Assembly: GCF_037126465.1 (NCBI RefSeq)
Contig: NC_088206.1
Location: 13,677,187 to 13,741,186 of the forward strand
DNA from: Ornithodoros turicata
Taxonomy: Eukaryota; Arthropoda; Arachnida; Ixodida; Argasidae
Length of the DNA stretch: 64,000 nt
Direction of reading: 5' to 3'
In this document: positions 39 to 56,614 of the stretch, one piece after another
Position numbering within the stretch: position 1 is the stretch's first letter
How the letters are laid out: each line of letters opens with the position of its first letter
The notes under the pieces: generated by a model
What the model was told of the DNA's origin: nothing
Seen by the model: the letters and a program-made list of their open reading frames with translations, nothing else
Database searches by the model: none
Made by a program: the position numbers and the translations under genes

Positions 39-2300
39 TCATGCTTCGGTGGGTGTCAGTGTCCATTGTCCCAAAAGTTCTCTACTTTTATGAGTCCATG
101 TCTTTAACCTCCGTTTCGTTTCACATATTTCTTGCTCGCCATCTTTTCCGGTGCCAAATCCCAGGGCCACTTGTAGGGAGCACTGTCTCGGAGCGCCTTG
201 CGCTTTGCAAACCAATATAACATGTGCCGTTGATTCCAATTCACCAGATTCACATAGCGGACATTTTTGATCACAGCTCTCATATTTGCTTCTCAGTGTT
301 CTCGTACGTAGCATTCCACTTCTGGCATCGAACAATAGGCCGCTCTACGGAGAGTTATCATAGAGGTGGAGCACATTTCCTATGTCAGTCTTCCAGTCTC
401 TGTAGGTCGCCAAAGCTGGCTTCTGTTCCATTCGTCTCCTCCAGTCACGCGTTTCTACTGTAATTATCTGTTCTCGTATTTGTTTGGCCGAGGGTTTTGG
501 TGAGTCCCGATCCAGAAGCATAACTGGAATTTCGTACTTCTCCGACAGTTTTTTGGCCCGTTTCCAGTCAGTTTCCATTTCGTAGATAATCCCATTAGGT
601 GTATAGCCTTGTACAGAATTCTTGGCCATCCATGTTCGTCCATAGTGCTCAGTCTCACCTCGTACGTCACCTTGCTGCAAGCTTCTCTTGCTTCGAACGT
701 AGATACTCCCATGTCGCCGAGTACAGCTTCGTTCGGGGTAGACTTGTGGGCCCGGAGTGCCATTCGGCCTATTTCCCTTTGTTTCCTCTCCATGTATTCT
801 CGTGTGCTTGATCCAATACAAATTATTCCATTGCCGAAAGTTAGGCTAGGAACTACTACAGCTTTCCACAGTTCCCTTACCACTTGTGGGTAACTGTAAC
901 TCCACTGCGCAACTCTGTTTAGATACCCCATTGCCCGCTGTGCCTTCGTTCGCAGTTTCTGCTCATACTGTTGAAAACCAGTTGCAGCAGTTTCGATGTT
1001 GATTCCCAGATAGGTATAAGAGTCCAGATTCGGTAAAAGCTCACAATTCAAGGATTACCTTGCTTCCCTATGTATAGAATTACAGATTTCTTGGTGTTGA
1101 AATCCAGTCCTCTCTTTGTTGCAAAAGTTCCACATATGTTAAGCATGTTTTGTAGCTCTTCCTCTCGCTCCGAAATTAACAAAATGTCGTCCGCGTACAA
1201 AAGTCCTGGTATAGTTAAATGTCGTTGCTTGCCGTCTTCCCAGTATTCCAGTTGGAGTCCCATTTCCGTTTTCAGGAGAAGTTCTTCCAGTTCCGCTATA
1301 TAGATATTGAAGAGTTCAGGCGATAGTGGGCAGCCTTGTTTCACCCCTTTCTTGATTGGTATGCTGCTTGTCATCTTCCCTTTCCATTTTGCAGCTGCTG
1401 TTGCACCATCATACATAGCCTGAATCATTACAGTTAGATCATCTTCAATTTTGTATTGTTTAAGTATATCCCAGAGCTTTCCCTGTTGTACCGAATCATA
1501 TGCCTTCCTGATATCAAGGAATCCGAGATACAAAGCTCCGTTTTGTTTTCTTTTGATATCTATCAGCTGTGTTAATACAAATAGGTTATCCTCCAATCTC
1601 CTGTCCTTTCTAAAGCCGTTTTGCATCTCTCCAAATATTCCTTGTTCTTCCACCTGTTGTTCAAGTCTATTTCCAGTGCAAAGGTCCTGTAGGCTGTAGA
1701 TGTCACAGTTATTGGTCGATAGTTGTTGAAGTCTTGTTTGTCCCCCGTTCCTTTATATAGCAGAGTTATCCGTGACTCCTTCCATTTCATTGGGATTTCT
1801 TTTGTCCTCTACACATTATTGAATAACGTTGTCAGCCACTTCTTTCCTTTGGGGCCTAGCTGTTTCAGTATCCTTGGAGATACCCCATCGGGCCCTGCGC
1901 TGCTTGAGGCATCCAGTCTCTGCAGTGCATGATCCACCTCTTGTAATGTGATTTTCCCTGTGGAGATGCTTGTGTTGTTTTCCTTGGTTTGTGTATCCAG
2001 TTGTACGGGTATTGTAGTTCTACCTCCTGTCTCACTGGACATTTGCCTGGTCAGCCATTTTTCGAGCTTCTTAATTTCCTCTATATGGGCTGGGGAACTA
2101 GAGTCTGAGTGCTTCTGCAGTTTTTGTGTCAATGATTTGATATAGCCCCAAAATTTTGTCGGTGCCTTTCTACCTGCTGTCTTCAATGACTGGATAAACT
2201 TTTGGTCCACTTGTTTAATCTTGTTTTGTATCATGCCTGCAGCTTGCTGTTTAGCTGTCGCGATATTCTTCCCACGGTCGTCGTTTGCGAGGTGGATGGA
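39..2300 (-). pseudogene. Decayed non-LTR retrotransposon (LINE), RT and C-terminal zinc-knuckle region
   Basis: Read on the minus strand, this is a reverse-transcriptase ORF broken by an in-frame stop near 1809 and by frameshifts near 1640, 1050 and 610, plus a stop at about 345. Visible in order: an EN-RT linker (2300-1900), the RT block with YADD (LLYADDILLI, about 1195-1165) and GCPLSPELFN upstream of it, a thumb region (1050-620) and a Cys/His knuckle CPLCESGELESTAHVILVC (about 265-210). The endonuclease half is missing. The upstream sequence 2300-2490 looks unrelated and carries a 24/25-bp tandem repeat. Clade not assigned; clearly non-functional. Confidence 0.85.
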
Positions 2301-8930: not shown

Positions 8931-9164
8931 ATGCCTTAAAGGTACTGCAAAGCAGCACCGATCAAATGTCATTTAGTGTGGCTATTCGATAGTCCGAGCC
9001 ACCAGGAGAAAAACTGCGCAAGTTTCATTCCAATCGACGGTGCAATTAATTAGAAAATTACAATTAAAGATTACGGGCAACACCGTACCAGGTATTCGAA
9101 ATGAATTCGTACTCCTGACACATACGGTGGCAACCACATTGCATGCGTATAACACTGGGCTCGA

Positions 9165-11008
9165 CATAACGGAACCCTTCTCACGGAACCCTCTGTTGTA
9201 GCTGAAAAGTTCGCCGGATTCTTCTCTTCAGTTTTCACACCAGTCACAACAACGAACAGATGCTTTGCATCATCTGTTTCTGCTCCAAATCTCAGCCTTG
9301 CTCACTTTCAAATAGAAGAATCTGATGTTAAACGTGCCATCTCTGAGCTGAAATCGAGCACTTCAGCCGGCTTTGACCGCATTCCCAATTTCATTGTAAA
9401 AGGATGTGAGCCAGTGCTTACCCCTATACTTGCGGCTCTGTTTAACAAGTCGTTAAACACATCTACTTTCCCTTCATGCTGGAAAAAAGCCATTGTTGTT
9501 CCCATCCATAAAGGTGGTGCGCCAGCTGAGGTGTGTAATTACAGGCCCATATCCTTGCTATCTTGTTTTTCTAAGATATTTGAGAAGGTGGTGTTCCGAC
9601 ATCTGTCTTTTTACTTTCATTCGTTTCTGTCTGATTCACAACATGGTTTTACTACTGGCAGGTCCGTGGAAACTAATCTTGTGACTTATATTAACTATCT
9701 TAGCTTGCACATTGATAACCATAAGCAGGTTGATTCTGTGTATTTTGATCTGTCTAAGGCCTTTGACACTATTAATCATGAATTGTTGATCACAAAGTTG
9801 TCACTATATGGTATCTCACGTTCACTCTGTAAATGGTTTTCTTCCTATCTCTGCGGCCGGTACAACATTGTTCGGTACAAAGATGCATATTCTGATCCTT
9901 ACTACATGACATCTGGTGTGCCCCAGGGATCTACCCTTGGGCCATTACTATTTAACATGTTTGTTAACGATTTGCCAACCTGTGTACTTAACTGCCACGT
10001 CCTGCAATATGCTGATGACATTAAGTTATTTCGAGTCATTGATAACATTCACAACTGTACCGCTCTGCAAGATGACATTTCACGGATCCATCGTTGGTGT
10101 TCAAACAATTTGCTTAACCTGAACATTTCTAAGACAGCCGTCATCTCTTTCACTCGAAAGCAGCATCCATGTCATTATACTTACTCTCTCGACTCTGTTC
10201 ATATTAGACGTGAATCGTCCATTAAAGACTTGGGTCTTCATCTTGACAGCTCTTTAACTTTTCACACGCATGTAACTCAGCTGTGCAACTCTGCGATGCG
10301 TAAACTCGGCATAATCTCGCGGATCACCAAAAACTTTCAGGATCCATCTTGTTTCCTTCGCCTATTCTTCTCCACCGTAGTCCCTCTTCTTGAATTTGCA
10401 TCGGTGGCCTGGAACTGCCTCAGTATCACTCAGTCCGCTGACATAGAAAACGTTCAGCGACGCTTCATCTTTGTTTTTCATCTTCGTCATCTTGGCTGCA
10501 GCACTTACTATAACTACGATCATATACTGAACAAGCTCTCGATCCCCACACTATCTCATCGCAGAACGATTCGTGACTGTCATTTCTTGTATAAGCTCAT
10601 ACATTCTGTCATCGCCTGCCCCGAACTACTATCGTGCATCAACTTTCGAGTGCCCTCACGTTCTCTGAGGTCTCATCTTCTTTTCTATCCTCACTCTTTT
10701 GCAAAGCTTCATCCAATCAATCGTTTACAACTAATGTTTAACTCCGCCTTACAACACCATGACATCGACATTTTCGCTCCTTCTCGTGATTTTCTTACTA
10801 GTATTAGTGCCATTGTTTCTATTTAACTTCGTTTGTTTCACCGTTAACCTTGTTGGCTTTTTGTATATTTTACTGTCGTATTTTACTGTCGTTTTGTATA
10901 TTTTACTTTCTTTGCTCACATGTATAACCTTATATGGTGCACCAATTAGTAGACCCTAGTGGTTGTTTTTGGGTACCTTAACAAAAATAAAGTTATTATT
11001 ATTATTAT
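9165..11008 (+). mobile_element. 5'-truncated CR1/Jockey-type LINE
   Basis: An open RT region runs to 10826, followed by a 3' UTR-like stretch and an (ATT)n tail at about 10993-11008. The 5' end falls within the EN-RT linker near 9165, typical of incomplete reverse transcription. Target duplication not determined. Confidence 0.85.
9171..10826 (+). CDS. LINE reverse transcriptase, long open fragment
   Basis: The frame is open from 9053 to the stop at 10826, about 550 residues from the element start. RT motifs in order: SSTSAGFDRIPNFIVKG (finger), NYRPISLLSCFSKIFEK, QHGFTTGRSVETNL, YFDLSKAFDTINHELL (first catalytic Asp), SGVPQGSTLGPLLFNMFVND, LQYADDIKLF (catalytic YADD), NISKTAVISF and DLGLHLDSSL. 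The C-terminal block with RRTIRDCHFLYKLIHS is typical of CR1/Jockey-group ORF2. The endonuclease is missing and there is no start codon for a full ORF2. The uninterrupted frame suggests a young insertion. It is a retrotransposon gene, not a host gene. Confidence 0.85.
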   Translation, partial: GTLLTEPSVVAEKFAGFFSSVFTPVTTTNRCFASSVSAPNLSLAHFQIEESDVKRAISELKSSTSAGFDRIPNFIVKGCEPVLTPILAALFNKSLNTSTFPSCWKKAIVVPIHKGGAPAEVCNYRPISLLSCFSKIFEKVVFRHLSFYFHSFLSDSQHGFTTGRSVETNLVTYINYLSLHIDNHKQVDSVYFDLSKAFDTINHELLITKLSLYGISRSLCKWFSSYLCGRYNIVRYKDAYSDPYYMTSGVPQGSTLGPLLFNMFVNDLPTCVLNCHVLQYADDIKLFRVIDNIHNCTALQDDISRIHRWCSNNLLNLNISKTAVISFTRKQHPCHYTYSLDSVHIRRESSIKDLGLHLDSSLTFHTHVTQLCNSAMRKLGIISRITKNFQDPSCFLRLFFSTVVPLLEFASVAWNCLSITQSADIENVQRRFIFVFHLRHLGCSTYYNYDHILNKLSIPTLSHRRTIRDCHFLYKLIHSVIACPELLSCINFRVPSRSLRSHLLFYPHSFAKLHPINRLQLMFNSALQHHDIDIFAPSRDFLTSISAIVSI

Positions 11009-17800: not shown

Positions 17801-20800
17801 CTCCTCTCCTCACCCAACGTTGGAAGTCTGACTGTAACTGTGGCGAGGAACCGGAAATTGACCTTCGGGGAGCAATTTATTTATTTATTTATGTATACTA
17901 CTAGCCTACAAGGCTGATGGTAAGACTGAAGCAGTGTTGCCAGACTAGAGCACTGCACGGGCCCGGGCTTGCCCGAGCCCGGCCCGGCCCGCGGGCTGGG
18001 CTTTGCGTTTTTTATGCGGGCCTGGGCCGGGTACGGGCTTGACCACGCCGGCCATGGTCGGGCATGTACGCGATCATATTTCACGAGACTGGACAGCTGA
18101 ATTTTCATGTCACTTTTTTTTCCCCATTCGGCATGGGATATCACGGTATTCTCATCTGAGAACTATCACTTTTTATATGTGATCATGCTTGTTTCGTGTA
18201 ATTGGTCTGGATTTCACACGTGTACTCAGACACGTTTGGAGACGATTGGTGCGGCGGGCGCGCTGAGAGTCCGGCACGAGGGTCATTTAGGATAGGTGTT
18301 GGGACATATTTCGTTCCCGTGAGAGTCCGGCACGAGGGTCAGTTAGGTTAGGTATTCTGACATATTTCCTTCGGGTGAGAGTCCGGCACGTTAGGTGTTC
18401 TGAGATATTTCGTTCGCGTGAGAGTTTGAGAAAGGGGAACTAACACCGGTGCATGCGCAATAGAGCGGAGATGAGTCTCTCTTGAACCGCAAGGTACATA
18501 TGTATCGCCCACGCGCCGCTGCGCGCTGCCTTCCCAAGCAAGCAAGCACCGAGCTCAGAGCGGCTTGCCGGCAGAGAAACACAGCCGCTTCGTTCGAGTG
18601 CACCTCCTCACTCTCTCCACCAATTAGCTGCGTCCTTTTCCTCGCTGCTCTGTGCTCTTTAGTAAATCTAAATACTCCTCTGGGCCTCGAGAACACATAA
18701 GAGCAGAGGTGGGCTGGGACCGGGCCTGAGCATGGAAACAGTCGGGTACGGGCTGGGACCGGGCTGGAAATCCATAAAAGACGTCGGGCCCGGGTCGGGT
18801 GCGGACCGTAGGTGCCAGGCCTGGGCCGGGCACGGGCCTGAAAATTAGGCCCGTGGAGTGCTCTATGCCAGGCACATTTCAGATACGCGCACTCTGTGAC
18901 GTCATACCTCTCAAAAGTAGAAATTAATTTTATTATTGACTCCGTTGTCACATAGAGAGGTAATATTTTGGGGCTCGGGATACAGTGTGAGACACGTGGA
19001 TTGCGAATAGATTGGTTAGGTTAACTCCAAAGACACGAGTTTTAGTCCTTAGGGGAAGTTTAGCGTTTGGAATGTATTCACCCTTTTAAACGGTGTGTGA
19101 AGAAGTATAGGTAATAATTTATGAATGAACGCCCAACACCTAGAATCAGTGTCAATGGTATACTTGGCACCTTCCTTTGCAGGGGTTGTACGCGGAGTCT
19201 CACGGCACTATTGACAGCAAAATGTACGACCCGGTGCTTAAAGACACTTTTAGAGCGTCCTCCAGGGATTCCAAATGGTGGGACACCGAGCCAGTAAGTG
19301 TTGCGTGCGATTTTACTTTTTTAAAATACAATTAGTATGATTTCTTCACTATTAAAGGGGCAGTTTCATAGAGTATGACTTTCATCTCCACAGTGGATAA
19401 CGCAACTGTCTCGACATAAAAGGCCATGCTTTTATTATATGGTGGAGGGCTGCTTAGCTTACCATGAGCCGTGTACTGGCAGCGCCACCTACGTAAACAA
19501 AGCCTGATTACTTCAAAGGTGTGACGTGGTCATTATGAGTCCGCCAATAACGACTTTGCTTTCAGCGGCCGTATAGCTGCGGAGTCAAGCCGCCATGAGC
19601 CACGTGGCCTGCCGTTGGTAGCCAGAGGAAGCCTGTGTTTGAAATCGTCTGCGACGGCTCGCTGAAGCAGACGTCGTGCCGACATTATGTGTCCATACGG
19701 CGAAGCAATGAGAAGAGGGGTCTTTGGTATCCATAGGTGGTGTTGGTTCTGAGGACCTTCCCAACCCTTCGCCTCTTGGACATATAATGTCCGGGATGTC
19801 GTCTGCTTCAGCTACTCGCCGCAGATGACTTCTCCTCTCTTGGCTACCAGTGGCTGTCCATGCGGCTGATGATGTCTCCACTGGCCTTTGTCTCTATAGG
19901 TATCTTTGTTGCATAGGCCTTCCCCATAGACCATACGATACAGTCTCTTAAAAGAATACGAAATCTCAAGAGCTTGAATGTAAAACCTTGAACGCAAGAC
20001 ACCGTGAGACAGATTGAGAAGACCTCGTACGGCTCGCGTTAGGGTTAACTTGAACGCCGTTCTGGCCTACATACCCTGGTGATGTTTAGTAGAAATAACC
20101 GCCGAGGCTGTTTCGGTCATCTAGTTACAGTTAGAGGGATGACCCTCGTTGTGAAGGGGTTGTTTTCTGCATGCTACGCACAGGATTCCAATGTATTGCT
20201 CCACAGACTACAGCGGGCTGGGCGAACGAAATGCATTCTGGACAGGTCCTATGGTCGCGCGTCACAGCAGACGTCAACGCAACGTCGTTTGTAAACAAGG
20301 CGTTTACTGTTTCTGTGCACCGTTTCGGGAGTCTTTGGACCTCGGTAGTTATTTTCATCCGATAATCTGATAATCTCGCATCAAACGCGCAGTTTTGTAC
20401 GGGAGGCCTCGTATACTGCAGACAACTTTTAAAGATGTGATGACGACACGGCATTATGACCACGGCCTACTAGATTATATGGTGTTTTCACATGACGTCA
20501 AGCGAACCCGTTTGGCCTCCATGGTGGTGGTCACTTTTTCGGCGCAGCTGCAGGGCTTATCTAGCGTTTGCTCGAAAACGAAGCCTTTTGAATAGTGTTT
20601 TGAAATCCGGACGCGTCCGTACCCTTCTTTTATCCCAAAGGCGCTTCATCATTGTCGTTCTCACATTTTCTTTTATGAAAACTGTGGTTGTCGCATCGAA
20701 AAATAGCGTAGTTTGTCATCTTGCAATGCCGCTAGCACGGAAAGTGACCATCAGTGGGAGGAGCTTCCGAGCATGCCACGTCACTGTCACGTCACAATGT

Positions 20801-23800
20801 GACGTAAGTGAAAGCTCCCTATAGCGACCATGTCATAATCGGCAACCCCTATGAGAAGCGCTAGAGGCGCTACTCATCGGCCCGCGAGATGTGCATCGTG
20901 ATTGGACAATAGAAATTTGAATTTTGAACGCGCAGAAGCGGACGTACGACTACCGTAGCAGACGACAGCAACAGCTCCTATGAAAACGCGTAGACTGATG
21001 GCGACAATCAACTTTAGAAAGAGGCATGTTGAATTGAATTGGATTGAATTGAATTTTATTTCACACATGGTGTGAGAAACTATGGCTCATGTTTGTTTCG
21101 TGGGACATCCGCCGCCTGTACAAAAATGCTAAGGTAAGCTAAAGTAGAAAGTACTGTGGAAATTGAGAAAGCAATACCGGGGCCGATGAGTAGCGCCACC
21201 GCTAGCCTCCAAATGCGGCGCTGGGAAGGGGCCCATATGACATGGTCGCTATAGTCTAGTATGTCGTGATTATGACACACTGAGCCGATGCGATTTACTT
21301 AAACTGAGGACAAATGGGCTTGCATGTCGCGGAAGAAGTATAGTTTACGCTGGCAAAATACGTTCATCTCTTGGCTTCATGCCGATCGGAATACTCGGCA
21401 AGCGCTAAAATGATATGCAAACAAAGTCACGTGACCTAAAAGTGACGTTTCCTATGACGTGTGACCAGGACAAGACGGCAGTTTTGCGAAAAGCACCTGC
21501 TTGAGGGCAGGTACAGAAATGGCGGATTTACGAGGGACGTTCAAATCAAACCGGGACTTTCTGTCTCCTGAGTGTACAAATGACTCGCGCTACTTCTTTT
21601 TCATCATTTTCACACGCCTCCGCGTTCACCACGTGCTCGTCCAAAGTTTGTGCAAAACAGAAGGCACATGCTGGACAAGATGGCCGACAACGAGGTGAGC
21701 GCGCACATTGAACAGCGAATTGTCATGAAGTTTCTCGTCTGTCTGAAGGCGTAAAGTCATCTAAAATTCACAGAAGACTTCAGGCTCAGTATGGCCACGA
21801 TACACTTAGCCGCAGCAAAGCGTTTGAGTGGTGCAAACGGTTCCGAGACAGGCGTGCGTCAGTGCAGGACGATCCGGGCCGGGGCGGCTCAGAGCCCAGT
21901 GTCAGAGTTCCTGACAACATCCAACTTGTGGAGCGCCTGATCCTCAAGGACAGACGTATAACATGTCTCGAACTGACTCGAAAGACGGACATTTCTGTGG
22001 GAACGTTGAACACTATCATTCATGAACACCTCCAGTTTCGGAAAGCCGGGCCTCATCACCAAAGAAGTCCCTCCTCCTACAGGACAATGCACGCCCGCAT
22101 ACCACGCATCTCACGACACGCACCTTACAGGAACTTGGCTGTGAGTTGCTGCCACATCCCCCTTACAGTCCAGACCCCCAGCAATTTCCATCTCTTCAGG
22201 CCACTGAAGGCGTTTTTTCGGGGCCGCCACTTCAGCTGCGACGACGAGGTCAAGAATGCGGTCCGATCATGGCTGCTACGCGCCGGTAAGGATTTCTACG
22301 CTGCTGGCATCCAAGCCCTCGTGAAACGCTGGGACAAGTGCATTAGTGCAGCTGGAGATTACGTGAAAAATAAAACTAATTTCTCGCCTGTAAGTTCATT
22401 TTACTTTTGCGAAAAATAAAAAGTCCCGGTTTGGCTTGAACACCCCTCGTATGTCACTCCTGTGATGCTAGACGCTGCCAGGGTGGCTCCCTTTCCGCTT
22501 CACTGGCTACATAGTGTAAGGTGGATGGCAACGCGGAGCACCGGCAGGCTGTTCGAAGATATAGCCTGCAAACAATGCAAAGGACACTCGGAGCCCCAGA
22601 TACTGCCCAGGTATTCCCGAGCGACATTAGAATGTGTGACATGTCCTTTAAAGCTGCAAAGGACACTCGGAGCCCCAGATTCTGCCCAGGTACTCCCGAG
22701 TGACATTAGAATGTGTGACGTGTCCTTCAAATCTGCAAAGGACACTCGGAGCCCCGGATACTGCCCAGGTATTCCCGAGTGACATTATATTGTGTGACGT
22801 GTCCTTTAAAGCGCGGCGATAACCCCGCAGCATTACATGAAGACGATCTTTTTGTACAGGTGTGTGAAACAGCTGTAGCCAAAGATTAGACAGATGGTTA
22901 CCCTAGTTGCAAAATTGCAGATTTCGGAAATCGATGTAAGTACATAGGTAGCTTGTTCGCCTCGCCTCGCAGAATGCGGAAGTGACGACATTGCTCTGTG
23001 GTTCCGGTAGAATCCGAGCATTTTCGGCGGTCGGAGTTGGTCTGAAACGACAACCGAAACAAGCAAATCGCAATGGGTCCGTTCTTTAAATATGAGAAAA
23101 CACATATTTCAGATATGGTCTACAGTGGAAAGAAGTGGTAAAAAGTCTTACACGTTCTTCTGGCCAGGCTCAGACAATAAGATCAACGGAACCAGGCCGA
23201 GCAGATACTTCAACTTTCCAAGGTGACTTGCCTTATGCCAGACTGTGTACATAGACGATATACAGGGTGTCTCAGCTAAGTGCGAACATATTCTTTAAAA
23301 ATATATATATATCACTTTTTCCGAGATGGAATCAATTGTAACATACCATATGCTGAAAGGCACTTCTTAGGAGGACATTAGCAAACTCCTAAGGCAATGT
23401 CTTAATTAACTTTCAATAATTAACTTTTTAATTATACAAGCTATGAAGTTGTCCCAATGAGAACATCTGGTCCCTTCGGTCACCTGATACCGGAGCCATT
23501 TTCAGAACAAAAATCGGTTCGATAGATCGTCCGCAAAAAATTAGTGAAGAAACACCATTTTCTCCTTTATTGCTCTTCGATCGTTATTGTGACGGGCTCG
23601 TTATTTTATTCCCCACATTCCCACCAGCAATGGGGTAGAGTATCGCCTGTGGCGATGAACCTCCCCACTCTCCAAAGCCAAAATAAAGTTGTTGTTGTTG
23701 TTCTTCTTCTTTATTGTGTTCATTACACATCTTCAGAGACGCGACTTTCCTTCACCCCCAATGTGAGAGAGTGAAAGAGCACACTATCGCCTCTTGCGTC

Positions 23801-43300: not shown

Positions 43301-46300
43301 ACGCTTTTGCACATGCAGCCATCGTCCTCATCAGCTACGTCCTCAGTCGCATTCTCAAAGTTGACGTAGCACTGAGGAGGCACTTGAGGATGAGGAAGGT
43401 CTGGCAGTGGACCGTGGCTCCTCAAGAGATAATGCAGTGCTCCTCGTGTCCCGTTGTTCGGTCTTGGAGATATCTTGAGCAACTCTTCGCAAGACATATG
43501 GGTCGGTTAGCTCGTACGCGTAGACTGCACTTAATGGTGGACTGCATTGTGTGGGATACACCTTACCTGCCATCAGCTCGTAGAGCTCAATATTTCGAAA
43601 CGGTCTCACTCCGACGTTTTGCTTGAACGCTGGTCCATGACCTAGAAAGATGCCCTGTGATGACATTGTTAAATAAACTGATGTGTCGTCCAAGGCTTTC
43701 ACAGGTACATAATTATGCTTCAGACTTGTGGGGGACTGTTTCTCAAGGTTAGGAAATGCGACGAGATCGTAGGACGTATATAGTTCTGGACCTAGATACT
43801 TGTTTACGTGATTGTTATGAGAGTTTGAAACGTTGCAGACCGCTTGGTGGACTAGGCAGGCACAGTGACAGAAGCAATTAGAGCACTGATAGGCAGTAGT
43901 TAAACTCCCTATGGTTACTATGCTTGTACAACAGCTTTTGGACAAATCGTGCGGCAGGAGGAAGGTATCTGAAAATGGTAATAGCAACTGCATGTTTATA
44001 CATTTTTGAGGGCAGAACTTAGCTCCAGGCGAGAGACCCGCGTAAGGACAACAAGAAGGAAAGAAACCAAGAGAGAATTCGCTGTTCTCCCTCTGCACAT
44101 CATAAGAGCGCTTCAGACATGGAGTAACTACGACGTTCCATTTAATAGTTTTCTCACCTGCATGCTCGGTGCCATGTTGTCGTAGCCATGAGCACCTCCC
44201 GTGCAATAGTCAGACTCTTTGTCCGCCATCTTGCTGAAGAGAGAAAGCATAGCCCCCATGTACTTTTCAAGAACTGGAGGATGGCACACGTCCCAGCAAA
44301 ATAGTGCATACTTACTTTAGAACAAGGTAACCCGAGTCCATGTCTAATACAATAGGCTCAATGCGTCTGTGATCAGAGTAATGGTAGCGTTTCGGTAGCC
44401 TTTCTTTTGCGTAGACAAGCAGGTGTTCATGCCTGCACCGCAGCATTTCGACCAGTTGGCCAACTGCAACTAGTAACATGGATACGTTTTAGTATCTACC
44501 CAGGCAGCACAGAATGTTAGCCCAATATTGGCTGCACATTGGGAATACTGGTCTAACATTTGACCAGTATTCTCAAGGTTCTGCCAATATTGGCTCATCA
44601 TTGTGTATATCGGGCCAATTTTTCCAAGACCATGCCAATATTGGCAATATACCGAAACATGGCTGCTCATTGGCGAAACCGGCTGGTCAATATCGGACCA
44701 ATATTGGGCCGGGTTGCAGTTGCTATATCGGGCCAATATTGGCAATATTGGTTCGCCAATATTGGACCAGTACGGGTCCAATATTGGTGTGCTACCTGCA
44801 CTCTTAAAAAAAGGGTGTACTTTAGCTCCTTTTTCTTGCCACATATATCACTTCCTTTTGGAGAGTACAGTTACTCTCAAAAAGGAGTCTCCTCACTCCC
44901 TCCAGGGAGTAGCATTACTCCCTTACTCCCTACCGGAGAGTAATATTACTCTCCAGTAGGGAGTTAAAGCGTAACCCCACTCTCTGAAGGGAGTGACGAG
45001 ACTCCTTTTTTAGAGTAACTGTACTCTCCAAAAGGGAGTGATATATGTGGCAAGAAAAGGGAGTTAAAGTACACCCTTTTTTTTAAGAGTGTGGGTAGTA
45101 TTGATCGAACAGAGCTTCCCTCACATTTCGTGCTGGACTTTGGCTTGATCCGAGCTGAAGCTCCAACCAAAGAGTAGAAACTTGATGGATCGACGTATCG
45201 ATCAAGGGCGATGACTTGATCACAGCTGATACTAGTCATTCCTGTTCGGGATTGCCATGGACGAATAAAGAAGTGGCAGCCTCGATTGAGATCTGATTCG
45301 AGAACCGTTTCAACGAAAGTACTCACCGTGGTCAGACACAATGATGATGTTCACGCAGCCCAAGATATTCCTTTCTTGAAGACCCGCTATCAGCCTGTCC
45401 AGCATGATCTCCAGGAGCTCCAAAGCCTCGTCGACCTGGAGTTATAAGGTGGTTGTTGATAAAAATAGCCAGTCTCCACGCTGTGAACACACCAGGAGAA
45501 AACGGCACGTCAAGAGCGAACGGGAGGTACGTCATGCATAACACACTAAAGAGGTTACCGAAAGAACTTCAACCGCTTATGCTGTAGGTGGGGTTCATAC
45601 GTTCGATACTCCATAATTCCAACGGGGGTCTTTTTGTTTAAAAGTTCCAGAAGACGCTTCTATAAGATGTCAGGGATGTACAGTACGCCAAACACCGGCA
45701 GGGATGTAAGTGGTTTGCGCAAGTTCCACGCCAGGCCCTGCAGACGGAGACATTGACAGACACGCACTGGTAGTGCCGGATTTCCGGAATATAAAAACAG
45801 GGGGCCGTATCAATTTCGGAGACGTGTGTTTCGTACTCAGAAACCATACGATACCATAGGAAGATTATGCGTGATTTTTCAAGAATGCGGTTGGGGGAGG
45901 ATATGTTTATTAAGAAGAAAGGAAAGGTTAGCCAGGCAAATAGCCGGCTTGCTGTTCCAAAAAAAAAGGGAAAAGAAGGAAAGAAAGGAAGGCCAAGAAA
46001 GAAAGAAGAAAAGGATATTATAACAACGCCACATGCGGTTCATGAGTCCTGAGGCTCTTAGAAAACTGAGGAGAATGGCAGTGGACAGCCCACTGGTTGA
46101 GGTGCAGGACAGTATCAAGGAGAGCGGCCAAAGAAAAGTCGTTACAACCAGGCTGGAGCAGACGGCACCGGAGGGTGTTCCTACTGTGAAGGTGCTGTTG
46201 AGTCATTCGTTTGATAACCCCAGTAAGCCGTTTGTTCGATGGCGCACGAGATGAAAACAGCGTTAGAACGTCACGGTTGCATATGTCCACCCAAGTGTGC

Positions 46301-49136
46301 TACGGTGTAAATGCACCAGTACACGTAACGGCCTATACTGTGCCGTAAATGACAATGGAGTATATAATGCTGCCCTTCTGTCACAGTTGACGTCTGCAAG
46401 ATACGGACGCGAATATGCGCAATAACGACAACACCTGCTAGATACCGACGCTCTGTAGAATGTCGCGTGGTGTAGAATGACGCTGCTGGTGCATTGTCGT
46501 ATAGTGTGCCGTCTACATTGTGCCAGATGCTGTATTCGCACACCACCGTAGTAGTAGTAGTATACCACCATGACATAACCGAAACACACGCACACCTGTA
46601 TACTCACCTTCTCTGAATGAGGCCCATAATCGTGTCCAGCACTATCTGGCTCATTCACGTAGAGGCTCATGAAAGATGGTCTCCTGTCTGGTGGAAGATC
46701 CAACCATGCTAAGATGACCTCCACTCTGCTCTGCCACGGTATCTTCCTGGAGAACAATGTGAATATCGCGTCAGTCTAGCCAAAGCACCTTCTTAAACCT
46801 ACGCCTCTTCTCACTCATTATATTTGAAGTAGTAACTCGGACGGCCATTTCGAATCTTCACGTCGGAACCAGGCCAAAAGAAGGTTGCGGACTTCTTGCC
46901 CTGCTTCTCAACCGTCACCCATATCTGTTACAAAACGTACAGCGGGGTCTATAACGGGGTCTATAACGGAATATGTCCGCGTTTCCAAAACGATACGCTT
47001 ACCGGTTCACCTTCCCACCATCTGGTCTTGAAGGACTCCTTATTACCGAGCTTGAACAAGGTCTTGAGTTCGGGATCGTACATTTTGTTGTCGACAATAC
47101 CGTGAGATTCTGGCCATAACCCCTGAAAACGAGTCAATGGCATTAGGATACGTGAAGTCGCATTGAGATGGAACAAAGACCTACAGTCACGATGGTATAA
47201 TGATTGGGAAACGTCTTCGACGGGAACACCGGTCTCATAAACGGTGCCTTTACACCACATTGGGCTAGTCGTTCCAAGGAGGGATTCCGACGCCTTTCCA
47301 GGTAGTCCGGTCGGAAACCATCCAGGGATATAAGCAATAGTGGAGCTTCTTGAAAGCTGCGGGTAAATCGAGCACAGACACAACTACAATAAGCTTACAG
47401 TCGTATTCTAGATCCGCCCTTAGTCACTCCTATACAGTCAAGTACACTTCGAGGGACCCTCTCTTCTTGCTTCAGTCATACTTAAAGGGGCACTAAAATG
47501 CAAAAAACTAGTTCACTTCGTTACGTTATTACGTTAAATTACGTTACACGCTTTGTTAATTTCGTACTTGTTATAATTATGCTACAATTCAAAACTTTGA
47601 TTCCGTTACGAAGCTACAATCAAAATTATACCGTACTCTTTCTTGCTTCGGCGCTAAGCAATGAACGACGCTTCAGCTCGTGCATAGGTGCTTTTAGTCC
47701 ATGCTGCGCGTGCACGCGCGTGCCACGTATTGGAGCAGTCCCGGTAAAAAAACACAGTTCGCGTTGCGAAGCGTACTGGCGTCGCTGTCCGAACGCCTTG
47801 AAGACAAACGTTGTCTATGAAACGTTCGCGAGAACTGTTGTGGGCTACAATTCATTGAATCGGTATTGAAAAATGCAGCAGTGCGCATCATGCCGCGCAT
47901 ATACGGAACACTACGATTGGACCCGTTCCAAAATCCAAATCCACACGCCCACGATAGGTATGCGCGCGCTTCTCCTGCTCTCTCATTGGATGCCGCCATT
48001 CTTTGCCTCCTGGGGATCCCGTTCGTTGCCGCAAAAGACGCCTCTGTTTTCGTTGCGTTTTTCTTCTAAACGGTAGCATTGTGTGAACTATGTATTTTGG
48101 TTGAATCGTGCTAATTGAAACACGGACTTTCATTTGAGAGCAAGTTGCTTTTGCATTTTAGTGCCCCTTTAAGGGGACACTAAGAACCGTAATACAAAAG
48201 GAACGGGATCCAACGGTTGCGTCGGTCATGATTTATGATCGATAGAAAAAAAGAAAAAAAAACACTTTCGCTCTTTATCTCCTTCTCAACAAGGCCGACG
48301 ATGCGAAGCGGGCTCTCATTGGTCTCCGCAAAGGATTTGTCCAATCATTGCGAGAGATCGTTTCAGGAGTCCAGTCAGAGGCTTCTTGAAAAGGAGAGGC
48401 ACAAGGAAAGCTCATACATCAGGAACGACGCAACCGATGAATTGCGTTCCTTTGAAGTCGCTGTCGAGGTAACGGTATATTTCATTCCGCTAGGAGAAAT
48501 TTTTGTGATTCGGGGCCTTTTAACTGTCTCCGCTGTACAACTTGACTGTCTCCTCTCAGTCTAACGACGCATCCCACAAACTCAACAACGATGCCGCACC
48601 AGTCGTCCGCTCTGCTCGGGACACTGAAGGGCTGATGGAAGGTGGTCCATGCAGCGCGCCCTTGAGTGGAGGGAACGGTAAGGTAAGGCGGCAAGGTAAG
48701 GTGTGGTTGAGTGAGATTTGAGAATCAGAGAGGGAATGCCTGGAAGCGGCCCTAGGCTCCAGGGACAACCGAATAGGGGAGCGAGAAGAATTCGAAAAGT
48801 GAGGGGACCCATTGAAGGGTGCACTAAGGACCTTTTAAAAATGCTGCTGTTAGAAAGGGTAAGGAAGTCCTTACTCTTCCGGGCACTTGTAGTCCGGATT
48901 GATGCATGGTAGATGCTGCCATTCGGAATCAAACAGTTCGTCTGAAAAACAACACAAACTGAGAACGGTTCTGTGCTTATGGTAATAGGACGCGGTTCTT
49001 TACCTGAGAGGTTCCCAGTGTTGCTATCTTTGATCCGTTTACCAACTTCGATCCCGCGGAAGTAACCGCCCAGAAAGGTGGCAACGATGAGCGCAACTGC
49101 CTGTTTGAGAACAGGTTTAGCTGTATCGTCAAGATA
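40192..49136 (-). CDS. ENPP-like: ENPP gene 2: membrane-anchored ectonucleotide pyrophosphatase/phosphodiesterase, 17 exons located, 5' end open
   Basis: Minus-strand exons in order: 49136-49004, 48941-48875, 47356-47185, 47122-47003, 46924-46815, 46746-46608, 45435-45327, 45241-45125, 44469-44316, 44233-44158, 43654-43567, 43484-43303, 42801-42619, 42538-42406, 40883-40637, 40567-40405, 40335-40192. About 778 codons, plus an undetermined start. The first located exon has a hydrophobic segment ([14 protein letters not shown]) after KPVLKQ and before basic residues, fitting a type II membrane anchor. The catalytic residues are complete: SLDGFR, SKTFPNH, EPDSAGH, SDHG, HGYDN. The C-terminal nuclease-like domain follows. 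All phases agree with gene 1. No somatomedin-B repeats. Expected to face outward and cleave extracellular nucleotides or phosphodiesters. Confidence 0.88.
40405..40567 (-). CDS. ENPP gene 2 penultimate exon
   Basis: Acceptor ctgtgtag, donor tgccag|gtaaca. Encodes [20 protein letters not shown] and [18 protein letters not shown]. The following intron is 69 bp, stop-free and a multiple of three. Confidence 0.92.
40637..40883 (-). CDS. ENPP gene 2 nuclease-like domain exon
   Basis: Acceptor aagcaaag chosen by phase ([14 protein letters not shown]). Encodes [47 protein letters not shown]; donor atact|gtaagt. 42 bases longer at its start than the gene 1 exon. Confidence 0.88.
40930..41470 (+). 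mobile_element. LINE 3' end (knuckle plus 3' UTR) in ENPP gene 2 intron
   Basis: A plus-strand frame to 41318 contains [17 protein letters not shown], a C-terminal knuckle typical of I/R1/Jockey-group ORF2, then [14 protein letters not shown]. The 3' UTR contains gcaatggggcagtgtaccgcc, diverged from the tails at 16495 and 23600. Opposite in strand to the host gene. Confidence 0.7.
41862..42170. repeat. Foldback, arms about 130 bp
   Basis: gtggacgacgacaacgcgcc through gcccgctgggac pairs with gtcccagcgggc through ggcgcgtcgtcgtcgtcgtc (for example cagccagttctaccg against cggtagaactggctg). In the intron upstream of the nuclease-like exon. Confidence 0.75.
42406..42538 (-). CDS. ENPP gene 2 exon, pre-nuclease segment
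   Basis: Acceptor cgttgcag, donor ccaccag|gtacac. Encodes [44 protein letters not shown]. Aligns with gene 1 exon 14 (HRDPRV...TTCNEY...PLFPP). Confidence 0.88.
42619..42801 (-). CDS. ENPP gene 2 exon, inter-domain linker
   Basis: Acceptor gatcgcaag (phase 0), donor ggaagg|gtaatt. Encodes [50 protein letters not shown]. Matches gene 1 exon 13 without its lysine-rich run. The start could lie a few codons either side. Confidence 0.82.
42802..43302. other. ENPP gene 2 intron, no feature recognised
   Basis: A minus-strand frame near 42890-43010 was tested as the linker exon and discarded. Nothing else seen. Confidence 0.4.
43303..43484 (-). CDS. ENPP gene 2 exon, end of catalytic domain
   Basis: Acceptor cttgcgaag, donor aaaagc|gtaagt. 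Encodes [20 protein letters not shown] and [13 protein letters not shown]. The RPNNGT.GALHY motif is shared with gene 1 exon 12. Confidence 0.9.
43567..43654 (-). CDS. ENPP gene 2 exon, GPAFK block
   Basis: Acceptor tcatcacag, donor ggcag|gtaagg. Encodes [20 protein letters not shown] then NIELYELMA. 88 bp, as in gene 1; canonical GT donor here. Confidence 0.92.
43655..44157. other. ENPP gene 2 intron, no repeat recognised
   Basis: The minus frame stays open into the next exon for a long way (to about 44206), but the stretch does not resemble ENPP and is treated as intron. Confidence 0.45.
44158..44233 (-). CDS. ENPP gene 2 exon, HGYD zinc ligand
   Basis: Acceptor ctcttcag, donor atgcag|gtgaga. 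Encodes [20 protein letters not shown] then MAPSMQ. The His of HGYDN is a zinc ligand. Nine bases longer than in gene 1. Confidence 0.9.
44316..44469 (-). CDS. ENPP gene 2 exon, [10 protein letters not shown] strand
   Basis: Acceptor gttactag, donor ctaaa|gtaagt. Encodes [50 protein letters not shown]. 154 bp, phase 1/2. Confidence 0.92.
44497..45098. mobile_element. CCAATATTGG foldback MITE interrupted by another MITE
   Basis: Left end TACCCAGGCAGCAC. The interior is an array of CCAATATTGG palindromes. The right end is GTGCTACCTG, continued after the 44799-45091 insertion as GGGTA. In an ENPP gene 2 intron. Confidence 0.85.
44799..45091. mobile_element. CACTCTTA-family foldback MITE, complete, nested
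   Basis: 293-bp palindrome CACTCTTAAAAAAAGGG to TTTTTTTTAAGAGTG, flanked by TG on both sides (44797-44798, 45092-45093). It sits inside the right terminus of the 44497 element. Confidence 0.9.
45125..45241 (-). CDS. ENPP gene 2 exon after SDHG
   Basis: Acceptor cccgaacag, donor gaaat|gtgagg. Encodes [20 protein letters not shown] and [11 protein letters not shown]. 117 bp, as in gene 1. Confidence 0.9.
45327..45435 (-). CDS. ENPP gene 2 exon, SDHG zinc motif
   Basis: Acceptor aactccag, donor ccacg|gtgagt. Encodes [20 protein letters not shown] and [11 protein letters not shown], with two zinc ligands. 109 bp. Confidence 0.93.
45436..46607. other. ENPP gene 2 intron, no repeat family assigned
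   Basis: Purine-rich stretch at 45915-46015 on the plus strand. No exon or MITE recognised. In gene 1 the equivalent intron is only 88 bp. Confidence 0.45.
46608..46746 (-). CDS. ENPP gene 2 exon, EPD zinc ligands
   Basis: Acceptor gttctccag, donor gagaag|gtgagt. Encodes [40 protein letters not shown]. The canonical EPDSAGH is intact. Confidence 0.93.
46815..46924 (-). CDS. ENPP gene 2 exon, FFWPGS block
   Basis: Acceptor gtaacag, donor aatga|gtgaga. Encodes [20 protein letters not shown] then [16 protein letters not shown]. 110 bp. Confidence 0.93.
47003..47122 (-). CDS. ENPP gene 2 exon, GLWPESHGI block
   Basis: Acceptor cgttttcag, donor gaaccg|gtaagc. Encodes [20 protein letters not shown] and KTRWWEGEP. 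Nine bases longer than gene 1. Confidence 0.93.
47185..47356 (-). CDS. ENPP gene 2 exon, first zinc ligand and nucleophile
   Basis: Acceptor ttacccgcag, donor tgact|gtaggt. Encodes [20 protein letters not shown] and [17 protein letters not shown]. Zinc Asp, nucleophilic Thr and the family Lys before it are present. Confidence 0.93.
47486..48168. mobile_element. TTAA-flanked MITE, AGGGGCACTAAAATGC termini
   Basis: AGGGGCACTAAAATGCAAAA and its inverse at the right end, with TTAA on both sides (47482-47485, 48169-48172), as for piggyBac-type insertion. 683 bp, no transposase. In an ENPP gene 2 intron. Confidence 0.85.
48169..48874. other. ENPP gene 2 intron remainder
   Basis: Right of the TTAA MITE another similar terminus (ttaaggggacactaag) starts, but its partner end was not found. 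No exon seen. Confidence 0.4.
48875..48941 (-). CDS. ENPP gene 2 exon, pre-catalytic linker
   Basis: Acceptor tgtttttcag, donor ggaaga|gtaagg. Encodes [20 protein letters not shown] then PE. Two Cys at the same spacing region as gene 1 exon 2; phase 1/2. Confidence 0.88.
49004..49136 (-). CDS. ENPP gene 2 membrane-anchor exon
   Basis: Acceptor gagcgtag, donor ctcag|gtaaag. Encodes [12 protein letters not shown], the hydrophobic [14 protein letters not shown], then [18 protein letters not shown]. Short for a membrane span, but in the right place for a type II anchor. The upstream first exon is not securely found. Confidence 0.75.
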
Positions 49137-52445: not shown

Positions 52446-52447
52446 TT

Positions 52448-52548
52448 TACCCAAGCAGCACAACATCTTTGCCAATATTGGACCAATATTGGGCCAGTAT
52501 TGCCAATATTGGTTCAATATTGGGCCAAGATATTGTGCTGCTTGGGTA
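52448..52548. mobile_element. CCAATATTGG foldback MITE, minimal 101-bp copy
   Basis: TACCCAAGCAGCACAAC to GTGCTGCTTGGGTA with an interior of CCAATATTGG palindromes. It lies two bases from the preceding MITE. Confidence 0.85.
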
Positions 52549-53267: not shown

Positions 53268-53296
53268 ATTTATATATATATATATATATATATATA
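53268..53296. repeat. (TA)n microsatellite, left border of retrozyme array
   Basis: Alternating TA that runs directly into the first 288-bp monomer. A second (TA)n lies at the other outer border (55322-55342). Confidence 0.9.
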
Positions 53297-53411
53297 AAGA
53301 GAGGAAAAAAGCCATTAAAAAATAAGAAAAATGACGCTAGATGTGTTTGAAATTCAAACTTACAGATTAAGATGGCTTCTATGGCTGCACGTAGAAAAAC
53401 AGATACTCATG

Positions 53412-53489
53412 GAACGATGCGACAGCACCAGAGGACACGTGTTTCGCCGTGTTTGCGGCTCGTCGGCCCTGGGCAGCTGCGCATCGTTC
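53412..53489 (-). ncRNA. Hammerhead ribozyme (type I, minimal stem III), copy A1
   Basis: Same 78-nt sequence as copy B1, on the minus strand. Predicted cleavage between plus positions 53434 and 53433. Confidence 0.8.
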
Positions 53490-53699
53490 GGGATTGGCAA
53501 ACCAGGGGTCACTCAGCGAGCGATATACACCTGGGAGGGTGACTGAGCACTCCTCAATGCCACAGTGCAAGCCAGTGGATTATAAAGAGAGGAAAAAAGC
53601 CATTAAAAAATAAGAAAAATGACGCTAGATGTGTTTGAAATTCAAACTTACAGATTAAGATGGCTTCTATGGCTGCACGTAGAAAAACAGATACTCATG

Positions 53700-53777
53700 G
53701 AACGATGCGACAGCACCAGAGGACACGTGTTTCGCCGTGTTTGCGGCTCGTCGGCCCTGGGCAGCTGCGCATCGTTC
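53700..53777 (-). ncRNA. Hammerhead ribozyme, copy A2
   Basis: Identical to A1, 288 bp further. Cleavage predicted between 53722 and 53721. Confidence 0.8.
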
Positions 53778-53987
53778 GGGATTGGCAAACCAGGGGTCAC
53801 TCAGCGAGCGATATACACCTGGGAGGGTGACTGAGCACTCCTCAATGCCACAGTGCAAGCCAGTGGATTATAAAGAGAGGAAAAAAGCCATTAAAAAATA
53901 AGAAAAATGACGCTAGATGTGTTTGAAATTCAAACTTACAGATTAAGATGGCTTCTATGGCTGCACGTAGAAAAACAGATACTCATG

Positions 53988-54065
53988 GAACGATGCGACA
54001 GCACCAGAGGACACGTGTTTCGCCGTGTTTGCGGCTCGTCGGCCCTGGGCAGCTGCGCATCGTTC
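53988..54065 (-). ncRNA. Hammerhead ribozyme, copy A3
   Basis: Identical to A1, nearest to the central spacer. Cleavage predicted between 54010 and 54009. Confidence 0.8.
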
Positions 54066-54159
54066 GGGATTGGCAAACCAGGGGTCACTCAGCGAGCGAT
54101 ATACACCTGGGAGGGTGACTGAGCACTCCTCAATGCCACAGTGCAAGCCAGTGGATTAT

Positions 54160-54202
54160 TGTAATTGTAATGGATTATTGTAATTAATTATTATAGTGGA
54201 TT
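54160..54202. other. AT-rich spacer between the inverted arrays
   Basis: 43 bp made of variants of gtaatggattat. Both ribozyme strands point away from it, so it is where a bidirectional transcript start would have to lie, unless transcription enters from outside. Confidence 0.6.
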
Positions 54203-54368
54203 ATCTGTAAGTTTGAATTTCAAACACATCTAGCGTCATTTTTCTTATTTTTTAATGACTTTTTTCCTCTCTTTATAATCCACTGGCTTGCACTGTGGCA
54301 TTGAGGAGTGCTCAGTCACCCTCCCAGGTGTATATCGCTCGCTGAGTGACCCCTGGTTTGCCAATCCC

Positions 54369-54446
54369 GAACGATGCGCAGCTGCCCAGGGCCGACGAGC
54401 CGCAAACACGGCGAAACACGTGTCCTCTGGTGCTGTCGCATCGTTC
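54369..54446 (+). ncRNA. Hammerhead ribozyme (type I, minimal stem III), copy B1
   Basis: Fold read from sequence. Stem I: GAACGATGCG/CGCATCGTTC, CAGC/GCTG and CCAGGG/CTCTGG, with an internal loop TGC/T and a one-base bulge. Core CCGACGA (54392-54398; the canonical form is CUGANGA, so position 4 is C instead of U). Stem II GCCG/CGGC with loop CAAACA. GAA at 54413-54415. Stem III A-U, C-G closing ACGU; ACACGTGT is a full palindrome. Cleavage expected after C54424. A very short palindromic stem III is the form described for Penelope-associated hammerheads that act as dimers. Confidence 0.82.
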
Positions 54447-54656
54447 CATGAGTATCTGTTTTTCTACGTGCAGCCATAGAAGCCATCTTAATCTGTAAGT
54501 TTGAATTTCAAACACATCTAGCGTCATTTTTCTTATTTTTTAATGGCTTTTTTCCTCTCTTTATAATCCACTGGCTTGCACTGTGGCATTGAGGAGTGCT
54601 CAGTCACCCTCCCAGGTGTATATCGCTCGCTGAGTGACCCCTGGTTTGCCAATCCC

Positions 54657-54734
54657 GAACGATGCGCAGCTGCCCAGGGCCGACGAGCCGCAAACACGGC
54701 GAAACACGTGTCCTCTGGTGCTGTCGCATCGTTC
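54657..54734 (+). ncRNA. Hammerhead ribozyme, copy B2
   Basis: Identical to B1; cleavage predicted after 54712. B1 to B2 cleavage would release exactly 288 nt. Confidence 0.82.
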
Positions 54735-54944
54735 CATGAGTATCTGTTTTTCTACGTGCAGCCATAGAAGCCATCTTAATCTGTAAGTTTGAATTTCAAA
54801 CACATCTAGCGTCATTTTTCTTATTTTTTAATGGCTTTTTTCCTCTCTTTATAATCCACTGGCTTGCACTGTGGCATTGAGGAGTGCTCAGTCACCCTCC
54901 CAGGTGTATATCGCTCGCTGAGTGACCCCTGGTTTGCCAATCCC

Positions 54945-55022
54945 GAACGATGCGCAGCTGCCCAGGGCCGACGAGCCGCAAACACGGCGAAACACGTGTC
55001 CTCTGGTGCTGTCGCATCGTTC
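54945..55022 (+). ncRNA. Hammerhead ribozyme, copy B3
   Basis: Identical to B1; cleavage predicted after 55000. Confidence 0.82.
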
Positions 55023-55232
55023 CATGAGTATCTGTTTTTCTACGTGCAGCCATAGAAGCCATCTTAATCTGTAAGTTTGAATTTCAAACACATCTAGCGT
55101 CATTTTTCTTATTTTTTAATGGCTTTTTTCCTCTCTTTATAATCCACTGGCTTGCACTGTGGCATTGAGGAGTGCTCAGTCACCCTCCCAGGTGTATATC
55201 GCTCGCTGAGTGACCCCTGGTTTGCCAATCGC

Positions 55233-55310
55233 GAACGATGCGCAGCTGCCCAGGGCCGACGAGCCGCAAACACGGCGAAACACGTGTCCTCTGGTGCTGT
55301 CGCATCGTTC
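55233..55310 (+). ncRNA. Hammerhead ribozyme, copy B4
   Basis: Complete motif in the last, truncated monomer. The only nearby change (C to G at about 55231) lies outside the fold. Cleavage predicted after 55288. Confidence 0.8.
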
Positions 55311-55321
55311 CATGAGTATCT

Positions 55322-55342
55322 GTATATATATATATATATATG
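55322..55342. repeat. (TA)n microsatellite, right border of retrozyme array
   Basis: The monomer breaks off at tatctg and passes straight into alternating TA. Confidence 0.9.
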
Positions 55343-56537: not shown

Positions 56538-56614
56538 GCGTGTTAGCTTAGCTCAATTGGTAGAGCCCTGGACCGGCAATCCAGAAGATGTGGGTGACTC
56601 CTACAGCTGGCTAA
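56538..56614 (+). mobile_element. tRNA-derived SINE head, Ala(GGC)-like
   Basis: GTTAGCTTAGCTCAATTGGT carries a good A box, and CTGGA-CCGGCAA-TCCAG forms an anticodon arm with GGC. The B box is degraded (gggtgactcct), position 33 is C, and an acceptor stem forms only partly (GTTAGCT/GGCTAAC). A SINE head or tRNA pseudogene. Confidence 0.55.

Follow-up and report, generated by a model that had tools for sequence, protein, structure and literature searches.

A metazoan retrozyme of Ornithodoros turicata with an insertion layout that ties it to Penelope-like elements

Animal retrozymes are already known (PMC7229834), and a putative one has been reported from the tick Argas monolakensis (PMC4918200). 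The enzyme that moves animal retrozymes remains open in print. Penelope-like elements (PLEs) are called "a strong candidate" in the discussion of PMC7229834, retrozymes "may rely on PLEs" according to PMC8969392, and mobilization by PLEs is also suggested in PMC11722881. Head-to-head Penelope inserts with a tail at one inverted end have been described (PMC3846280). The protein of an Anolis PLE cuts and extends both strands, prefers AT-rich targets, initiates at two internal sites, and is predicted to form a dimer (PMC11167929). The words "inverted", "orientation", and "head-to-head" are absent from the main text of PMC7229834 (Cervera and de la Pena 2020). We found no report of head-to-head retrozyme arrays or retrozyme-PLE hybrids in the open-access article texts searched.

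The present study concerns a 64,000-nucleotide stretch of the O. turicata genome (hereafter, the window), which contains a metazoan retrozyme. Its kind is known; what is newly described is its insertion layout, which ties it to Penelope. A covariance search with the Rfam model Hammerhead_1 (RF00163) gave seven matches in 288-bp units of the window, each with 37.5 bits against a gathering score of 34 (E 7.7e-6). This agreed with the first-pass annotation, which had proposed seven type I hammerheads recurring every 288 bp; since the copies are nearly identical, they count as one independent hit. The GAA and the GUC site with its cut after 54424, also part of that annotation, are present in the Rfam alignment, and the proposed stem I of 20 bp with an internal loop (14+6) and stem II of 4 bp were seen when the hammerhead was imposed on the fold.

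The seven units lie in two arrays on opposite strands, which face each other 5' to 5' across 43 nt, and the 3' end of each enters a TA tract. The left array (53293–54159, minus strand) is antisense and 867 nt long, corresponding to 3.01 laps, with 100% matches between copies. Its hammerheads are at 53428–53472, 53716–53760, and 54004–54048 (minus strand), with predicted cuts at 53434/53433, 53722/53721, and 54010/54009, respectively. The sense 3' end of this array (53293, minus strand) is at monomer site A (CTCTCTTTATA followed by TATATA), and the last 4 bases of the left (TA)13 tract (53271–53296) overlap it. An AT-rich filler of 43 nt (54160–54202) is the meeting point of both 5' ends. The right array (54203–55323, plus strand) is in the sense orientation and 1121 nt long (3.89 laps), with 99% matches between copies. 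Its hammerheads are at 54386–54430, 54674–54718, 54962–55006, and 55250–55294 (plus strand), with predicted cuts after 54424, 54712, 55000, and 55288. The 3' end at 55323 (plus strand) is at monomer site B (GAGTATCTGT followed by ATATAT), where the right TA tract (55323–55340) begins. The mean distance between units was 0.0017 within arms, 0.0012 between arms, and 0.0076 to the nearest other locus (L040). As previously annotated, the arrays are protein-free: none of the stop-to-stop frames overlapping them reaches 130 aa. The longest such frame in the 288-nt unit, with a GC content of 0.486, has 75 codons. An ORF with reverse transcriptase and GIY-YIG is absent from the retrozyme, which is not itself a PLE. 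No flanking direct repeats are listed at this locus except the units themselves.

Several other features were observed in the window. Two RVT_1 reverse transcriptase fragments (1048–1752, minus strand; 9153–10826, plus strand) are not GIY-YIG elements. Exon-like pieces of a type I phosphodiesterase/nucleotide pyrophosphatase are present at 46263–46775 and 46961–47383 (minus strand). A tRNA-like Rfam match of 43.3 bits at 56542–56612 (plus strand), with no ARAGORN gene, resembles the head of a SINE. Short tandem arrays occur at 22576–22812 (79 bp, 3.0 copies) and 18264–18390 (56 bp, 2.3 copies). A hairpin at 52446–52548 has 26-nt arms (92% complementary) around CCAATATTGG repeats, and weak miRNA-model matches probably reflect its inverted repeat.

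The hammerhead core reads CCGACGA in all copies in the window, where C replaces the conserved U of position 4 (U4C). Among 149 full units from 35 loci, 132 have C4 and 17 retain U4 (6/12 units in L041, 4/4 in L060, 6/6 in L061, and 1/2 in L068). U4C considerably decreases activity in vitro and still allows viroid infectivity (PMC3088659). Therefore, efficient cleavage of the hammerheads in the window cannot be assumed. Stem III (ACAC/GUGU) is the palindrome ACACGUGU without a loop, and for this reason it is absent from the unconstrained single-molecule fold; only the two-molecule fold is predicted to form it. The latter is a double hammerhead with a shared stem of 8 bp and a predicted energy of -84.5 kcal/mol, versus twice -41.1 kcal/mol, and folding thus predicts that the hammerhead in the window acts as a dimer. 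Divergence from the window unit was 0.0059 at hammerhead positions other than U4 and 0.0250 in the rest of the unit. None of 10,000 random sets of 44 other positions diverged as little as the hammerhead positions, in a column permutation that ignores kinship among the units, which are related. The ribozyme appears to be constrained, with U4 as the exception. The circular fold of the 288-nt unit had a predicted energy of -82.2 kcal/mol (shuffles, -67.6; z -2.8), and both A and B are unpaired in it.

The first-pass annotation had proposed a genome-wide count of the monomer and had regarded an absence of further copies as evidence against a retrozyme. At least 299 matches to the 288-bp unit were found in the genome (1.07 Gb, 379 contigs), and the unit is dispersed and multi-copy. 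With the type I hammerhead and the non-coding tandem units, this number upholds the earlier interpretation as a retrozyme locus. However, that interpretation, in which self-cleavage and a 288-nt circle are predictions, was incomplete. It did not include the head-to-head arrangement, the TA target with its two fixed 3' ends, or the connection to Penelope-like elements, nor did it note the U4C core and the loopless palindromic stem III.

We compared 35 loci, namely, the window and 34 loci fetched from the best matches listed; two listed loci, C38 and C2:61.46, were left out. L046 and L047, near-copies of one event, were both counted among the 75 arms and 27 pairs described herein. In C38:6593–10939, unit lengths cycle through 289, 290, and 291, resembling a higher-order satellite repeat. 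L049 (999/1940) and L055 (7039/8487) both have an unrelated insert at the same monomer position (174–180), with the 7-nt word GCGCAGC repeated on both sides. Across the 35 loci, 52 of the 53 TA-flanked 3' ends are at site A (~75) or site B (~255) of the monomer. Three arms ran past the edge of the locus, leaving 72 for the classification of 3' ends: TA follows 53 of them (52 ending at A or B and 1 elsewhere) and is missing from the other 19 (6 ending at A or B and 13 elsewhere). The class limits (A, 61–76; B, 252–257) were chosen after the ends had been seen. The longest TA-like word in the unit is TATAT at 129, which coincides with neither A nor B; therefore, the start must depend on more than a match to TA. 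Target duplications are difficult to recognize in such a TA context: a shared irregular word of at least 10 nt was found in 1 of 17 retrozyme inserts (12 nt, L043) and in 2 of 38 retrozyme and PLE inserts together, versus a chance mean of 0.47.

The orientation of the arms was strongly biased. Among adjacent arms less than 150 nt apart in the 35 loci, 27 pairs were "-+", 5 "+-", 2 "++", and 1 "--"; the "-+" pair was present in 23 loci and absent from 12. A strict script in which both outer ends were classed assigned A/B to 11 of 13 inserts and A/A to 2 (P 0.011). When read by eye, 15 of 17 head-to-head inserts were A/B (P 0.0012), with L052 and L064 being A/A; counting L042 as A/A (right end in the A range, no TA) gives 15/18 (P 0.0038). 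The 17 inserts comprise 18 of the 27 pairs, L054 giving two. The uncounted pairs were L041, L053b, and L068b, which run off the locus; L042 and L070, with a right end without TA; L046 and L047, with 25-nt turn-backs before the PLE; L051, the B end of which abuts a PLE; and L053a, in which the right arm switches family. Imperfect inserts that were kept are L054 (extra turns), L055 (interrupted by another element), L056 (A end without TA), and L068a (short TA). The median unit distance between opposed arms of one locus was 0.0035 (187 unit pairs, 117 of which are from L055 and weight the median) versus 0.0243 between loci (10,470 unit pairs). In 8 of 12 loci, opposed arms resembled each other more closely than they did the nearest other locus; the exceptions were L041, L052, L068, and L070. 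The two fixed 3' ends, TA target, orientation, and A/B pairing are seen directly in the sequence.

PLEs of the same genome exhibited the same arrangement. Of 3506 GIY-YIG candidates, 150 were scored and matched, with open frames of up to 981 aa, and one PLE frame carries both RVT_1 and GIY-YIG. Adjacent GIY-YIG matches within 10 kb were "-+" in 34 cases and "+-" in 1; the 34 pairs may include copies of a single locus, and four of them share a spacing of ~4.24 kb. We read 21 of these 34 pairs, picked by GIY-YIG matches of 33.2 bits or near. In 20 of them (15 resolved by script and, because of small variants that the script missed, 5 by eye), one 3' end is short (ending in CCTATCT) and the other is ~41 nt longer (ending in TTTTGTAGCG), and the ends run into TA. 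The remaining pair is long/long with an identical flank on both sides. The RT/GIY-YIG frame of L095 is directly preceded by a 238-aa frame (L095:3–719, plus strand) that carries a GDSL lipase domain (PF13472, 7.1e-9).

Three inserts fuse the retrozyme with Penelope sequence. L046 and L047, located 127 kb apart, have an identical joint and represent one event: the left arm is a retrozyme ending at A followed by TA, and the right arm is a 5'-truncated PLE that reaches the tailed 3' end followed by TA. The right arm of L051 is a PLE running into TA, and its upstream junction with the retrozyme is exactly at site B. In L062, a PLE 3' region enters TA, makes a short turn-back, and is joined to a retrozyme. 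Moreover, retrozymes are positioned directly across a TA tract from PLE 3' ends at C1:149.79, C2:92.42, and C2:96.92. The near-identical opposed arms in young loci, the same rule in PLEs, and the hybrid inserts provide evidence at the sequence level, and the hybrids and the common insertion rule constitute direct genomic evidence for a PLE as the mover.

Other families were also present. A 235-bp family in L044 has the same head-to-head layout with two 3' ends of its own, and L060, L063, and L053, read by eye, combine the 288 family with a 235-like family, one outer end being of the A type and the opposite one of the B type. A second hammerhead family at C3:106824423–106837050 is a 233-bp array of ~55 units with the canonical core CUGAAGA and up to 50.9 bits; the right end of this array (L003) is not in TA. 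In the 288, 235, and 233 families alike, B is followed by GTGCAGCCA and A by TGGCTT(N)GCAC, and 174 of 230 motif occurrences on strand 1 have the second motif within 130 nt. A conserved GTGCAGCCA-TGGCTTGCAC helix was considered and rejected: the two motifs paired in 9/9 lowest-energy circular folds of the 235 unit and in 0/9 each of the 288 and 233 units.

The head-to-head layout is common to many genomic relatives, which points to a Penelope-type retrotransposon as the pasting enzyme. We consider it likely that the retrozyme is non-autonomous and was inserted in one event by a PLE reverse transcriptase/endonuclease, with the two strands primed at two RNA sites. The PLE enzyme would open both strands of a (TA)n tract, and the freed 3' ends would prime reverse transcription on retrozyme RNA, one strand at site A (~75) and the other at site B (~255). 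Since arms make up to 13.4 laps, a circular or multimeric template is needed, several laps of which would be copied into each cDNA. The cDNA ends would then be joined via short homology or filler, giving two opposed tandem arrays with their 5' ends meeting centrally. We infer that the PLE protein is the agent, that both strands are cut, and that the template is a circle formed through hammerhead cleavage and ligation. In favor of this, the inserts of retrozymes and PLEs are alike in anatomy (head-to-head arms that differ in their kind of 3' end, inserted into AT-rich DNA), which is what biochemistry of the Anolis type would be expected to leave. However, the Anolis PLE in vitro showed no apparent difference in start site between the top and bottom strands (PMC11167929), which does not suit a rule of one site per strand. 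This rule thus rests on genomic counts. Further points that count against this explanation are the 4 of 12 loci in which opposed arms are no closer, the 12 of 35 loci lacking a "-+" pair, the A/A inserts, a similarity of the 288-nt unit to the 3' region of PLEs that does not exceed chance level, and the absence of hammerheads from the scanned PLE pieces (L095 and L073; a match in L074 sits 2.3 kb beyond the PLE end).

A possible, although less probable, alternative is that a PLE protein copies long uncut tandem transcripts, in which case neither cleavage nor an RNA circle is required. The opposed arms of L055 share 11 columns (one 10-column insertion and one more), as expected of a multimer with unlike units, and those of L041 share 3. 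The template in L055 was therefore probably multimeric, or its arms were homogenized later. The weak U4C core (PMC3088659) also fits this alternative, as does the in vitro insertion by the Anolis PLE of RNA with or without a working hammerhead (PMC11167929). On the other hand, no variant is common to the opposed arms in 5 of the 7 loci with both arms present and at least 4 full units (the window, L043, L057, L067, and L070), which suits a one-unit template, and the lower divergence of hammerhead positions except U4 (0.0059 versus 0.0250) also counts against this alternative.

Joint positions, orientation, and arm identity disfavor two other accounts. Self-priming, in which a single cDNA folds back and copies itself into an inverted repeat, is the account offered for Penelope in Adineta, and fold-back has been put forward to explain Penelope inserts that are head-to-head and have palindromic joints (PMC3846280). 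The short turn-back in L062 and the 5 of 27 joints with 5' ends coinciding within 6 nt (L044a, L046, L047, L063, and L068b, with L046/L047 being one event) are consistent with it. However, 5' ends are 12 to 141 nt apart in the other 22 joints; furthermore, arms stop at different 3' sites and the arms of hybrids are unlike, whereas a fold-back copy should end at one site. We regard self-priming as improbable. We give still less credence to two independent insertions into one TA tract or a later inversion or duplication of an array in DNA. Two inserts can indeed be neighbors in a single TA tract (L044 a/b, L068), and a PLE pair (C1:117.4) is a larger palindrome with identical flanks. Nevertheless, orientation is strongly biased, with tail-to-tail pairs far from equal in number, a TA tract is on the 5' side of only 4 of 75 arms, and no TA sequence separates opposed arms. 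In addition, 8 of 13 filler-free joints overlap by at least 3 nt versus about 5% expected, with overlaps, read from BLAST edges, possibly slightly too long.

Beyond insertion by a PLE primed at two RNA sites, we lean slightly toward a broader proposal in which Penelope-type insertion is an asymmetric two-primer reaction by an enzyme that is perhaps a dimer, with retrozymes as parasites offering both start sites. One target strand would be started at the upstream RNA site and the other at the downstream site, such that every insert would combine a short 3' end with a long one. Retrozymes would mimic this pair of start sites (B then GTGCAGCCA; A then TGGCTT(N)GCAC), be copied for many laps, and be co-insertable with Penelope RNA. 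Two RNA start sites, one per target strand, would explain in a testable way both the tail and the inverted repeat of Penelope. If this proposal is correct, inverted double arrays, one-sided Penelope tails, and the spread of retrozymes share one cause.

The retrozyme in the window is similar to metazoan non-LTR retrozymes in its type I hammerhead, a non-coding unit within 170–400 nt and with a GC content below 50%, tandem copies, and the lack of a protein (PMC7229834, PMC4918200). It differs from them in its opposed double arrays, two fixed 3' ends, (TA)n targets, PLE hybrids, and U4C. With PLEs that have an inverted pLTR and a one-sided tail, it shares the head-to-head arrangement, two 3' ends, and an AT-rich target; in these PLEs, one arm has a tail of about 30–41 nt (PMC3846280, PMC11167929). 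Unlike PLEs, the retrozyme is non-coding and has a 288-nt unit, of which its arms contain many laps. Hammerheads of PLEs and newts are reportedly dimeric, with a weak palindromic stem III as found here, where activity as a dimer is a prediction. In LINE-1 twin priming, opposed cDNAs are joined at their 5' ends within one insert. In contrast to LINE-1, both start sites of the retrozyme are fixed and internal, poly(A) is lacking, and opposed arms are the usual arrangement.
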